From assembly GCA_016213105.1 (NCBI GenBank), contig JACRBN010000025.1, positions 434,001-498,000 on the forward strand: DNA of 64,000 bases, written 5' to 3'. The notes under the pieces were generated by a model. It saw only the letters and a list, made by a program, of their open reading frames with translations. It was not told where the DNA came from and ran no database searches. This stretch comes from Chloroflexota bacterium (GTDB lineage Bacteria; Chloroflexota; Anaerolineae; Anaerolineales; Villigracilaceae). A program made the position numbers and the translations under genes. Shown one piece after another: positions 2,579 through 22,446 of the stretch (positions are counted from its first letter, which is position 1; the number at the start of each line of letters is the position of its first letter).

Positions 2579-3727
2579 ATGAATAAACGTATTTTGTTCG
2601 CGACGATGGCCTTGCTGATCGCCCTGTCCCTGGTGCTGACCGCGTGCGGGACGGCGGCCACCCCCGAGCCAACCGAGCCGCCGGCCACCGAGGCCCCGGC
2701 CACCGAAGCTCCGACCGAGGCCCCCACTGCCGCTCCCACCGAGCCGCCCATGCCCGAAATTGGCTCCCCCGAACACCCGATCAAGGTTCTGTTCGTCCCG
2801 TCCGTGGATGCCAACATCATCACCACTGGTGGTGAGGTCATGGCCCAGGCGCTCAACGAAGCCACCGGCTTGACGTTCGAAGTGGTCGTCCCGACCTCTT
2901 ACGCCGCGACCGTCGAAGAGATGTGCGCCTCCCCCACGGACACCATGGCCTTCATCCCCGGCCTGGGGTACGCCATTGCCAGCCAGTTGTGCGGCGTGGA
3001 CGTGTCCTTCAAGGCGATCCGCTTTGGGTATCCCGTCTATTGGGCTGAATATATCGTCGCCCGCGACAGCGAATACCAGACTCTGGCCGACCTGGAAGGC
3101 GCTACCTGGGGCTACGGCGACCAGGGCTCGACCTCCGGCTACATGGTCCCGGCCGTGGAACTTGCCGCAGCCGGCATCACCCCCGGTGAGCAGGTTCAGA
3201 CCGGCGGCCACAACCAGACCGTCACCGCCGTCTACAATGGCGAGGTCGACTTCGGCACCGTCTTCTACAGCGTCCCCCTGGGACCCGAAGGCGCCCCCAT
3301 CTTTTCCTACGATGATTACCTGGCCGGCACGATCACCAGCCTCGAGCAGTACGAGATCCCCGCAGCCTCCATCCCGAACTGCGCTCCCGATGCCGAAGGC
3401 AAGAAACTCCTCTGCGACGGCTACCGCATTCTCGATGCGCGCGCCAACATCCGCACGGAAGCCCCGGACGTGATGCAGAAGGTGCGCGTTCTGGCCGTCT
3501 CCGCCGCCATCCCGAACGACACGCTGTCCTTCGGCCCGGAGTTCCCCGCTGAACTGCGCGCCAAGATCGAAGAAGCCCTGCTCGCTTTCGCCGAAACCGA
3601 AGCCTGGGCCAGCTCGATCGGCAGCTCCGATTTCTATGGCTGGTCGGGTATTGCGCCCGCCACCGACGCCGAATATGACATGGTGCGCGCCATGGTCGCC
3701 GCCACGGGCTACAAGCTTCCCGAATAG
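2579..3727 (+). CDS. phnD: PhnD-like substrate-binding lipoprotein of the phn importer
   Basis: This 382-residue lipoprotein is the presumed binding subunit for the PhnC/PhnE importer encoded just downstream. From the ATG at 2579 (strong upstream GAGAGGAG site) there is a signal peptide ending in the lipobox LTAC. A long Pro/Glu/Thr/Ala-rich tether (about residues 22-60) follows, then a PhnD-type domain: KVLFVPSVDANIITTGG, YWAEYIVARDSEY (the 'yrs.ivvr.ds' segment), GSTSGYMVP and VDFGTVFYS. Family members bind phosphonates, phosphite or phosphate analogues. No C-P lyase or phosphite dehydrogenase gene is nearby, so the ligand is unknown. Confidence 0.88.
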   Translation: MNKRILFATMALLIALSLVLTACGTAATPEPTEPPATEAPATEAPTEAPTAAPTEPPMPEIGSPEHPIKVLFVPSVDANIITTGGEVMAQALNEATGLTFEVVVPTSYAATVEEMCASPTDTMAFIPGLGYAIASQLCGVDVSFKAIRFGYPVYWAEYIVARDSEYQTLADLEGATWGYGDQGSTSGYMVPAVELAAAGITPGEQVQTGGHNQTVTAVYNGEVDFGTVFYSVPLGPEGAPIFSYDDYLAGTITSLEQYEIPAASIPNCAPDAEGKKLLCDGYRILDARANIRTEAPDVMQKVRVLAVSAAIPNDTLSFGPEFPAELRAKIEEALLAFAETEAWASSIGSSDFYGWSGIAPATDAEYDMVRAMVAATGYKLPE

Positions 3728-18889: not shown

Positions 18890-19765
18890 TCAGACGCCGG
18901 TCATCAACTTGACGTAAATTTCCTCCAGCGCCGACTCGCGCATGGATAGGTCCATCAATGTCCAGCCGTTGGCGGAGACGGTTTCTAGCATGTGCGCGAT
19001 GCCGTCCACGTCGGCGGTGCGGAAGATGTAGTTGCCGTTGACCTGTTCGTAATCGAGTTTCTCGTCCGTGTGGAAGAGCACCTGGTACTCGCGTTTGCCC
19101 AGCCGGGCGCGGATGGAGTCCATCGTGTCGAGAACCAGCAGCTTGCCATTCTTGATGATGCCCACGCGGTCGCAAATGGTCTCCACGTGGAAGAGGTTGT
19201 GCGCGCTGAGCAGGATGGTCTTGCCTTCGCGCCGCAGGGTCTTGAGATAGTTGATGATGAAGAAGGAGGTCAGCGGGTCCAACCCCGAGTTGGGTTCGTC
19301 GAGGATCAACAGGTCGGGGTCATGCAGCAGGGCGCGCGCGATGGCGGTCTTGCGTTTCATGCCCTTCGAGAATTCCCCGGTCAGCTTGTTCTTCTCAGCC
19401 AGGTCGAGCGAGGAGAGCAATTGGTCGATGCGCTTGAGGGCTTTGGGGCGCGGCATCTGGTAGAGTTCCGAGAAAAACAGCAAATACTGCTCGGCGGTCA
19501 TGGCCTCGTAGAGCGGACTCTCCTCGGGCAGGTAGCCAATGCGCTGTTTGACGTGCGTGCCGCCCTTCTGCATGTCCTGACCCATGACGAGCACCTTCCC
19601 TGAAGTCGGCTCCACAAGCCCCGCAATCATCTTCATGGTGGTGCTCTTGCCCGCGCCGTTGTGACCGATCAGGCCGACAATCTCGCCTGAATGGATTTGT
19701 AAGTTCAGACTGTCGACAACGGTAGTATCATCGTAACGCTTGGTGACATTCTCAAGTTGGATCAT
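18890..19765 (-). CDS. NatA-type ABC transporter ATPase
   Basis: This 291-residue ATPase has Walker A GHNGAGKST (34-42), a degenerate signature FSKGMKRK (normal for NatA/CcmA-type exporter ATPases), Walker B LLILDEP, and the H-loop in LLSAHNL. A C-terminal extension of about 80 residues follows the nucleotide-binding domain. Its partners are most likely the two ABC-2 permeases encoded divergently from 19811. A TAAAAT box ends six bases before the ATG, with no ribosome site, so the transcript is probably leaderless. The APH-like kinase gene follows it. Confidence 0.92.
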   Translation of the reverse strand: MIQLENVTKRYDDTTVVDSLNLQIHSGEIVGLIGHNGAGKSTTMKMIAGLVEPTSGKVLVMGQDMQKGGTHVKQRIGYLPEESPLYEAMTAEQYLLFFSELYQMPRPKALKRIDQLLSSLDLAEKNKLTGEFSKGMKRKTAIARALLHDPDLLILDEPNSGLDPLTSFFIINYLKTLRREGKTILLSAHNLFHVETICDRVGIIKNGKLLVLDTMDSIRARLGKREYQVLFHTDEKLDYEQVNGNYIFRTADVDGIAHMLETVSANGWTLMDLSMRESALEEIYVKLMTGV

Positions 19766-19771
19766 GCCGCA

Positions 19772-19777
19772 ATTTTA
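19772..19777 (-). promoter_or_regulatory. -10 box of the NatA-like gene, leaderless type
   Basis: On the - strand TAAAAT ends six bases before the ATG at 19765. It lies in the 45-base gap to the divergent permease gene. No clear matching -10 box for the + strand gene is visible there. Confidence 0.5.
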
Positions 19778-19810
19778 TCCCAAAGTACCCCACCCAAAAC
19801 GGACATTTCC

Positions 19811-21415
19811 ATGAATCAAATTTTCGTCATCGCCTGGCGCGAAGTGACGCGCCTGCGCAAACGTTTCGGCGGCGGCGCAAGTCCGCTGGCCGTGCTCCTG
19901 CTGCTGGCCATGCTGGGCCTCTCGGCCTTTTCCCTGCGGAATTCGGTGGCGCTCGGCAACGGCCTGTACCGGGTCGGCGTCTCGGGCGACGTGCCTGTCA
20001 TCCAGGACAGCCGCTTTGCAGTGGTCGAGGTCGACGCGCAACAGGGGCAGGCGCTGCTCGACAGCCACGCCATCGATGTGTGGATCGACGGGGCGCGGGT
20101 GATCGAACGCGCGGATGACAAGTCGCAGTTTGCGGTGCGGGCGCTCAAGCAATACCTGGAGAAACAGGAACTGGTGCGGGTTGGGAATTCCTTCACGGGG
20201 GAGCAGGCCTTTCCGCTGCGGGTGGGGATCAACTACCTAAACGGCGACCAGGCCGCAGGACAGACCGTCACGAAGCCCGAGGAGGTCATCATCCCCTCGC
20301 TGACTCCTCCACCCGCGCCGTTCACGCAGGTGCTGGTCGCGCTGATCTACATCCTGCCGATCACCTTCATCAGCATCTTCTTCACCAGCAGTTTCATGGA
20401 CGAGAAGTCCAACCGCCGCCTGACGATCCTGCTTTCCGCGCCGATCACGCCCTTCCAGATCATCCTGGGCAAGATGCTGCCCTATGCCATCTTTGCGCTT
20501 TTCACCACGGTGCTGATCGCGATGATCACCGGGGGGAACGTGCCGCTGGCGCTGGCCATCTTCGCGCCCACCACGCTGTTCATCTTTGCCATCTACCTGA
20601 TGGTGCCGCTGTTCTACCGCACCTTCAAGGACACGACCTTCATCTCCATGCTGGTGACCACGCTGACGACCGCCTATCTGGTCTTCCCGGCCATGTTCAC
20701 CAACGTCAACGACCTGGCCTACATCTCGCCGCTGACCCTGGCGGTGAAGATGTACCGCGCGGAGCCGTTCGGCTGGCGCGAGTACCTGTTCCCGTCCCTG
20801 CCGATGGCGGCGGTCTTCGGCTTTGCCATGTTCGCCGGGACGCGCATGCTCAACGAGGAATTCCTGATGGGCTACAAACCCATCACGCGCAAGATCACCG
20901 ATGCCATCTACCTGATGATGGCGCACACCCGCCCGTCGCTGGCTGTGACCCTGTGGAGCCTGCTGGTGATCCCCGCGGTGTACATGGCCCAGGTCATGAT
21001 GCTGGCCTTCGCCGCCAACCTGCCCGTGCGGTTGATCCTGGGCGCGACCCTGGTCACCTCTGCATTGATCGAGGAGGTGGTCAAGACCATCGGCATCGTG
21101 GTGCTGGCCGAGCATCGCGCCGTGAGTTCGGTGCGCGACATCTTATGGTTGTCCTTCCTCTCGGCGCTGGGATTTTTGATCGGCGAGAAATTGCTGCTGC
21201 TGGTTTCGATCAGCATGGTGTCGCAGGCGCGGGTGTCGGGCGCGCTGTTCGGGGCGGGCATGCTCCTGCTGATTCCGCTGGCGGCCCATTTTGTCTTCAC
21301 GGCGGCGGTCACGCTGCTGCGGGTCAAACTGCGCTTCCCCTACTGGCTGGCGCTGGGACTGGGCACGCTGGCGCACTTCTTCTACAACCTGACCGTGATG
21401 CGAGGTGGGCTGTGA
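19811..21415 (+). CDS. ABC-2 permease fused to a PrsW-like intramembrane protease domain
   Basis: This 534-residue membrane protein has two parts. Residues 1 to about 390 are a NatB-like ABC-2 permease: helix near 25-40, a large extracytoplasmic domain (about 50-165), then helices with FMDEKSNRRLTILLSAPIT. The last 140 or so residues hold the elements of PrsW-type glutamic proteases: EEVVK (E421, E422, K425), GFLIGE (F455, E459), a membrane histidine (H493) and HFFYN (H522, N526). The ATG at 19811 has no clear ribosome site. The gene overlaps the next permease by four bases (GTGA). The fusion is read directly; proteolytic activity is an inference. Confidence 0.8.
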   Translation: MNQIFVIAWREVTRLRKRFGGGASPLAVLLLLAMLGLSAFSLRNSVALGNGLYRVGVSGDVPVIQDSRFAVVEVDAQQGQALLDSHAIDVWIDGARVIERADDKSQFAVRALKQYLEKQELVRVGNSFTGEQAFPLRVGINYLNGDQAAGQTVTKPEEVIIPSLTPPPAPFTQVLVALIYILPITFISIFFTSSFMDEKSNRRLTILLSAPITPFQIILGKMLPYAIFALFTTVLIAMITGGNVPLALAIFAPTTLFIFAIYLMVPLFYRTFKDTTFISMLVTTLTTAYLVFPAMFTNVNDLAYISPLTLAVKMYRAEPFGWREYLFPSLPMAAVFGFAMFAGTRMLNEEFLMGYKPITRKITDAIYLMMAHTRPSLAVTLWSLLVIPAVYMAQVMMLAFAANLPVRLILGATLVTSALIEEVVKTIGIVVLAEHRAVSSVRDILWLSFLSALGFLIGEKLLLLVSISMVSQARVSGALFGAGMLLLIPLAAHFVFTAAVTLLRVKLRFPYWLALGLGTLAHFFYNLTVMRGGL

Positions 21416-22446
21416 TCCGCCCGTTTCTGGCCGTCGTCAAAAAGGAACTGGGGTCGGTCATCCGCGACCGCACCATCGTTATCTCGATCCTGATCCAGTT
21501 GTTCATCGCTTCGTTCTCGTCCGGGCTGCTGCTGGGGGTGCTCTCGCTGTACGACGCGGACACGATCCTGCAATTCAGCGGCGAGGGCATCAAGATCGGC
21601 ATCGTCGGCGGGGCGGAGCACCCGCTGGCGGGCTTCATGAGCGAGCGCGGACTGAACGTCCTGCCCTACGCCACACTGGCCCAGGCGCAGGCCGCATTCC
21701 AGGCGGGGGACGTGCTGGCCATTGTTGATGCGCCGCAGGACGCGGACAACCTGACCGAGATCAAGCTGTACCTGCCCGAGTCGGACACGGTCAGCTCGCT
21801 GGTGCGCATGGTGATCCAGGAACCGCTCAAGCAATACGAGAATGCCCTGCGCGCGCAAAAGGGGGCCGAGGTGCGTTACACGAGATTGAAAGGCAAACCG
21901 TCCACGTCCTTCGAGTTCGTCTACTCGGTGCTGCTGCCCATGCTGATGTTCTTCCCCGCTTTTGTGGCCGGCAGCATGTCGGTCGACTCGCTGACCGAGG
22001 AAGTCGAAAACAACACACTGCAAACGCTGTTGTCCGCGCCGCTGACGATCAACGGGATGATCACGGCCAAGATTGCGGCGGCGGTCATCCTCTCCATCGT
22101 GCAGTGCACCGCCTGGCTGGCCCTGCTGGAACTGAACGGGATCGACATCCAGCACGAGGGCTGGATCCTGCTGCTGGCGCTGATCGTGGCGGGACTCAGC
22201 TCCTCCTCGGCCATCCTGGGGGCGGTGCTGCTCAAGGATCGCGAACGCTCGCAATTCATCTATTCGTTGATGCTGCTGGCCGCCACGGCGCTCAGCACCC
22301 TGGCGAATATTTCGCCGCTCACCACCCTGTCCCGCCTGGCCGTGGGGGATACGTACACGAACGGCTGGGCCGTCATCCCCTTTGCCGCGATCCTGGGCGG
22401 GTTGTATTGGCTGTTGACGAAGGTGTCGAGAAGGTTGATGGTGTAG
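21412..22446 (+). CDS. ABC-2 permease, NatB-like
   Basis: This 344-residue permease starts with GTG at 21412, sharing GTGA with the stop of the previous gene, with GAGGTGG just upstream. It has an N-terminal helix, a large extracytoplasmic domain (about 45-165), and five or six helices. The segment SVDSLTEEVENNTLQTLLSAPLT is the coupling motif shared with the first permease. The two permeases and the divergent ATPase would form a Na+/drug-type or peptide exporter. The cargo is unknown. It ends just before a palindromic repeat. Confidence 0.9.
   Translation: MIRPFLAVVKKELGSVIRDRTIVISILIQLFIASFSSGLLLGVLSLYDADTILQFSGEGIKIGIVGGAEHPLAGFMSERGLNVLPYATLAQAQAAFQAGDVLAIVDAPQDADNLTEIKLYLPESDTVSSLVRMVIQEPLKQYENALRAQKGAEVRYTRLKGKPSTSFEFVYSVLLPMLMFFPAFVAGSMSVDSLTEEVENNTLQTLLSAPLTINGMITAKIAAAVILSIVQCTAWLALLELNGIDIQHEGWILLLALIVAGLSSSSAILGAVLLKDRERSQFIYSLMLLAATALSTLANISPLTTLSRLAVGDTYTNGWAVIPFAAILGGLYWLLTKVSRRLMV

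Follow-up and report, generated by a model that had tools for sequence, protein, structure and literature searches.

A predicted PrsW-like intramembrane protease domain fused to an ABC-2 half-permease in a three-gene module of Chloroflexota

Introduction

To our knowledge, very few substrates of PrsW-family proteases are known. PrsW, CPBP and APH-1 have been described as members of one superfamily (PMC4602095, PMC6588880). The fusion of an ABC permease to a protease is already known as a general kind, and one such family is named in NCBIfam as NF041647. In the TMcin system, an intramembrane protease (TmcP) and a type V exporter (TmcBC) act on one membrane-embedded peptide (PMC13252029).

Here we describe a locus in which a single chain joins an ABC-2 half-permease to a C-terminal domain that resembles PrsW rather than CPBP. 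It lies in the window, a stretch of 64,000 nucleotides from a Chloroflexota bacterium (assembly GCA_016213105.1, contig JACRBN010000025.1, positions 434,001 to 498,000); all coordinates are those of the window unless another contig or locus is named. The PrsW-like version of the fusion appears to be new. No report of an ABC-2/PrsW fusion was found in the open-licence literature, and none of a direct coupling between a PrsW-family protease and ATP-driven transport in the literature accessible to us.

A permease and a C-terminal helical domain in one reading frame

The fusion is encoded by an open frame of 534 amino acids on the plus strand (19811-21415), ending in a TGA stop. Residues 1-363 (19811..20900) form a half-permease of the ABC-2, or type V, class, consisting of TM1, an extracytoplasmic domain and TM2-TM6; residues 160-342 match Pfam family ABC2_membrane_3 (33.2 bits against a curated cut-off of 31.6, E-value 3.8e-08). 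PDB fold searches, in which Foldseek candidates were re-aligned by VIA-align 2 (VIA), match the permease part of the AlphaFold2 model at Z 6-7 with ABC exporters, 8k1n and 6xjh among them. Over 77 residues (Z 6.9), the extracytoplasmic domain (residues 47-170; 19949..20320, plus strand) matches 2p0s_A, which is a putative ABC transporter domain from P. gingivalis. An earlier note, made from the DNA alone, had described the permease as NatB-like; the description holds at the level of ABC2_membrane_3 and does not extend beyond that family. Residues 365-534 (20903..21412, plus strand) make up the predicted PrsW-like glutamic intramembrane protease domain, which has five transmembrane helices.

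A frameshift or assembly artefact is excluded as the source of the fusion, because the same architecture occurs at full length at about 30 other loci in independent assemblies. These loci, together with the open frame itself, confirm the reading in the earlier note of an ABC-2 permease joined in frame to a C-terminal helical block. A scan of 84,980 species genomes returned 11 homologues, full-length or nearly so, at 70-80% identity. A profile built from the fusion matched 5 of the 201 genomes of the order and 21 of the 396 genomes of the class, both counts including the window's own genome, and 5 of the 197 genomes of a second class of the phylum; the module is sporadic within the phylum, yet broadly distributed. 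Nearly all of these matches cover the entire model, and the partial ones include a protein split across two contigs (in genome G803). For the permease part, no close relative lacking the protease domain was found; beyond a fusion of 48% identity (in genome G082), matches have E-values of 6e-6 or weaker. The absence of any domain-free close relative, together with the full span of the matches, indicates that the fusion is an old and fixed architecture.

Homology of the C-terminal domain to PrsW

Single-sequence hmmscan searches of Pfam and NCBIfam assigned no protease family to the fusion or to its C-terminal domain; a weak match to DUF1181 (E-value 0.03) was taken as chance. The PrsW model PF13367 matched neither the fusion, nor its domain, nor 17 homologous domains at E-values up to 10, and a PDB sequence search with the domain profile returned no match.

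Although these searches found nothing, a relationship to PrsW, as proposed in the earlier note, emerged when profile was compared with profile. The PrsW reference consisted of 31 PF13367 proteins from the window's own genome and phylum, collected independently with the Pfam model, and the CPBP reference of 15 PF02517 proteins from the window's own genome only. In hhalign, a 17-member alignment of the domain (A2) matched PrsW with a probability of 69.8 and a score of 41.9 over 111 columns, with EE, K, GF..E, H and H...N all in register. The best PrsW score among 300 column-shuffled versions of A2 was 25.0, and the reversed alignment scored 16.1. Against CPBP, A2 reached 1.4% over 16 columns only. 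A more divergent alignment of 31 members, gathered by the full-length fusion profile without reference to PrsW, matched PrsW with a probability of 90.5 and CPBP with 1.3%. Inclusion of three PrsW proteins found with A2 raises the probability to 95%, a value from a set that is not independent.

On this evidence, 70-90% against 1%, the domain is homologous to PrsW and does not group with CPBP, as the earlier note had it. Judged by the Pfam gathering threshold, it is a PrsW-like homologue that falls outside PF13367. Membership of the CPBP, or type II CAAX, protease family (PF02517) was rejected on the same hhalign probabilities (1.3-1.4%) and on the presence of EExxK in place of EExxxR.

When the A2 profile was run over 400 genomes, it found four weak places outside the fusions. 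Three of these (L100, L101 and L103) turned out to be PrsW proteins that carry EExxK and HxxxN; the one at L100 was also found independently by the PF13367 model. The fourth (L102, genome G178), a short open reading frame interrupted by a stop codon, we regard as a chance match. Another locus, L039, matching residues 426-527, encodes an unrelated protein without the motifs. The nearest non-fused relatives form a subgroup of Chloroflexota PrsW proteins of 410-470 amino acids (L044, L100 and L103), a subgroup with a long N-terminal membrane part. A PF13367 search of the window's own genome found only two other loci, one of them a strong canonical PrsW match. The same genome carries a 739-aa open frame (L058, C2:91599-91883, minus strand) in which a CPBP protease domain is joined to a C-terminal domain that, by eye, resembles a GNAT acetyltransferase.

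Motifs and conservation

Four motifs characterize the domain, all encoded on the plus strand. Motif 1 is E421-E422-V-V-K425 (EExxK; 21071..21085), invariant in 31 sequences. Motif 2, F455-L-I-G-E459 (FxxxE; 21173..21187), aligns with FAATE of PrsW, and its F455 and E459 are invariant. Motif 3, H493-F-V-F-T497 (21287..21301), aligns with HPFYT of PrsW; H493 is invariant, while T497 is altered in one homologue. CPBP proteins lack a histidine in this helix (PMC4602095). Motif 4 is H522-F-F-Y-N526 (HxxxN; 21374..21388), with H522 and N526 invariant; Chloroflexota PrsW proteins have HxxxN or HxxxD at this position. Residues E421, E422, K425, F455, E459, H493, H522 and N526 all stand where the earlier note had placed them.

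Conservation was assessed in an alignment of 31 sequences, from which the incomplete L134 was left out and in which identity falls as low as 44%. Only 14 of the 170 columns of the C-terminal domain are invariant: P388, E421, E422, K425, F455, E459, K460, L462, L490, H493, Y511, H522, Y525 and N526. All eight motif residues are among them (hypergeometric P about 2e-10), and their concentration in so few columns argues that the motif set is not a product of chance. Spacing within each pair is i,i+4 (421/425, 455/459, 493/497 and 522/526), which would put each motif pair on a single face of its helix. An enzyme, rather than a scaffold that has decayed, would be expected to show this pattern, which suggests that the fused domain is probably catalytically active.

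Fold and membrane topology

The isolated C-terminal domain was modelled by AlphaFold2 with a pLDDT of 84.3 and a pTM of 0.82. The first five VIA matches to this model are APH-1 and multipass-translocon/BOS chains, with Z scores of 8.5-9.8 over 135-149 residues: APH-1 chains of human gamma-secretase score 9.8, 9.0 and 8.6, those of the multipass translocon and BOS complex 8.9 and 8.5. The latter we take to be TMEM147, an APH-1 relative. For the full-length model, the best VIA match is again APH-1, over residues 371-534. Plain Foldseek gave no significant match with the domain model, and Rce1 (4CAD) is not among the VIA matches listed, an absence that rules nothing out. With a top Z of 9.8, just short of 10, the match is moderate by the standard of helical bundles; the fold evidence is in line with that of the profiles and would not stand alone.

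Membrane topology was predicted from the AlphaFold2 helices and family-average loop charges according to the positive-inside rule. Average charges for the regions placed inside are +4.1 (N-terminus), +3.0 (TM2-3), +1.0 (TM4-5), +3.0 (TM6-7), +1.4 (TM8-9) and +2.5 (TM10-11); those for regions placed outside are +0.4 (TM3-4), -0.2 (TM5-6), +0.1 (TM7-8), 0.0 (TM9-10) and -7.5 (the large extracytoplasmic domain). In this topology E421 and E422 are predicted in mid-membrane, with E459, H493, H522 and N526 at a distance of 4-8 residues from the outer helix ends. All four motifs, which the earlier note had read as those of one protease, are thus predicted to lie towards one common side of the membrane, the extracytoplasmic one. 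A site-1 protease of the PrsW type would be expected to have this arrangement, and an outward orientation of the protease domain is likely. That the motif residues converge is itself a prediction, drawn from motif spacing, topology and fold matches.

A three-gene module

A divergent gene on the minus strand (18890..19765) encodes an ABC ATPase of 291 amino acids of the NatA/DrrA/GldA type (Pfam ABC_tran, E-value 1.7e-34). Its motifs are intact: Walker A GHNGAGKST, signature EFSKGMKRK, Walker B LLILDEP and H-switch SAHN. Scores to the NCBIfam models drrA (235.6 bits) and GldA (220.9 bits) are each under the model's cut-off. The protein is 57-89% identical to the partner ATPases at other loci. 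The ABC_tran match, the intact motifs and the recurrence of the partner bear out the divergent NatA-like ATPase of the earlier note.

Between the ATPase gene and the fusion lies a divergent intergenic region of 45 bp (19766..19810). At 19772-19779 stands ATTTTATC, which on the minus strand reads GATAAAAT and resembles a -10 element. Six bases separate it from the ATG of the ATPase gene, and the motif recurs between ATPase and fusion at 11 of 12 loci. If a -10 element were placed there, the ATPase transcript would be leaderless.

Downstream of the fusion on the plus strand is a second ABC-2 permease of 344 amino acids (21412..22446; Pfam ABC2_membrane_3, E-value 5.9e-19, 68.8 bits), whose GTG start at 21412 overlaps the stop codon of the fusion (GTGA). 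It has no protease domain and is presumed to be the heterodimer partner of the fusion. With its ABC2_membrane permeases and a cognate ATPase whose Walker A, signature and Walker B are intact, the module has the features of ABC-2, or type V, exporters.

The survey proposed in the earlier note, for the same fusion beside a NatA-like gene, found the pairing at essentially every locus with enough flanking sequence: the ATPase on the opposite strand occurs together with the fusion and the second permease on the same strand, the exceptions being L121 and contig ends. L121 is the sole locus with full flanks at which no divergent ATPase lies within 1.5 kb of the fusion. Locus L008 has, close to its intact ATPase gene, a further short copy of the C-terminal end of the ATPase (3125-3253; residues 248-290, 88% identical).

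In the flanks of twelve loci, up to 5 kb, no further conserved neighbour was found beyond genes common to a few of them, and no substrate, peptide, sigma factor or anti-sigma factor gene is conserved beside the module. With no conserved gene outside the module, the substrate is probably encoded elsewhere.

Proposed role and alternatives

We propose that the module encodes a heteromeric exporter of type V that contains a PrsW-type protease, which clips a membrane-anchored substrate in coupling with ATP-driven extraction; we put the probability of this proposal as a whole at about 0.5. The fusion and the overlapping downstream permease would be the two half-permeases, and a dimer of the NatA-like ATPase would power the exporter. 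The glutamic intramembrane protease carried at the C-terminus of the fusion would clip a peptide, lipopeptide or protein that is anchored or inserted in the membrane, before or during its extraction. Since the predicted topology places the four motifs towards the outside of the membrane core, the cut would fall near the extracytoplasmic face. The ABC core, using ATP, would then pull one of the cleavage products from the bilayer. Wide conservation of the three-gene module points to coupling between cutting and pumping; for a coupling of cleavage to export rather than to signalling we allow slightly less than an even chance. More tentative still is the idea that ATP-driven extraction hands the membrane-anchored substrate to the protease, or takes it from it, which would make the complex an intramembrane protease, of the PrsW/APH-1 superfamily, that is coupled to ATP.

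The chief rival to this proposal is a sensor, in which the transporter core would register its own flux or the presence of an envelope-active compound. The PrsW domain would then perform site-1 cleavage of a membrane-anchored regulator, for example an anti-sigma factor. B. subtilis PrsW does cleave the anti-sigma factor RsiW in antimicrobial-peptide resistance (PMC4602095), PrsW domains are fused elsewhere to signalling domains such as PilZ and FHA (PMC3482391), and the predicted active site faces outward. Yet with only the three-gene module conserved at these loci there is no linked sigma or anti-sigma gene, and the genome has two other PrsW proteins, one of them a strong canonical match, so that we regard a sensor as rather unlikely.

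The domain might instead be non-catalytic, organizing or laterally gating the permease in the membrane as a scaffold like APH-1 or TMEM147. Its best PDB fold matches, the APH-1 and TMEM147-type chains, are indeed non-proteolytic; that all eight residues predicted for the active site, E421/E422 and the two histidines among them, are invariant in a domain that is mostly divergent speaks against such a role, and we consider it improbable. A general quality-control function, in which the protease would remove substrates that jam the exporter or leftover transmembrane segments (signal-peptide remnants, for example) with no single dedicated substrate, would suit both the lack of a linked substrate gene and the sporadic but broad occurrence of the module in the phylum. 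Strict fusion to one exporter family suggests a more specific role, however, and we give quality control very little weight.

Whichever substrate the exporter-protease proposed here may have, a fusion that is fixed across a phylum gives a natural means of finding the targets of a PrsW-type protease and of asking whether proteolysis within the membrane can be energised.

Comparison with known systems

Exporters of the NatAB, DrrAB and Gld-type ABC-2 (type V) class share with this module the class of the ATPase and the ABC2_membrane_3 permeases. They differ in that one half-permease here carries an extra protease domain, the ATPase gene is transcribed divergently, and scores stay under the curated cut-offs of the named families.

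The PrsW family (PF13367), represented by the B. subtilis protease that cleaves RsiW, has the same EExxK, FxxxE, histidine in the next helix and HxxxN/D in the last, and the profile-profile match extends over about 116 residues. Unlike those proteins, the domain described here is fused to an ABC-2 permease and lies below single-sequence detection by Pfam; its last motif is HxxxN, whereas HxxxD is given in PMC4602095 and is found in most of the Chloroflexota PrsW set. PrsW has been described as a module joined to other functions in its fusions to toxins and to signalling domains, and the portion of PMC3482391 available to us describes no fusion to an ABC permease among them.

NF041647 (ABC_perm_CPBP) shares the order of an ABC permease followed by a protease of the type II CAAX superfamily in one chain, and the second permease of the module matches its permease part weakly (36.8 bits against a cut-off of 435). 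The fusion itself gives no match to this model at E-values up to 10, and its protease part is PrsW-like rather than CPBP-like. In 101 genomes sampled from the phylum, no protein scores above the 435-bit cut-off. Beside the ABC/CPBP fusion, the protein described here is a second case in which a member of the type II CAAX/PrsW/APH-1 superfamily is joined to an ABC permease, and the two together hint at a general functional link.

The TMcin system differs in its parts: TmcP is a separate and unrelated site-2 metalloprotease, the precursor gene lies in the cluster, and the hosts are Gram-positive (PMC13252029). By analogy, it may nevertheless serve as a precedent, since in it one membrane peptide is handled by both an intramembrane protease and a type V exporter (PMC13252029).
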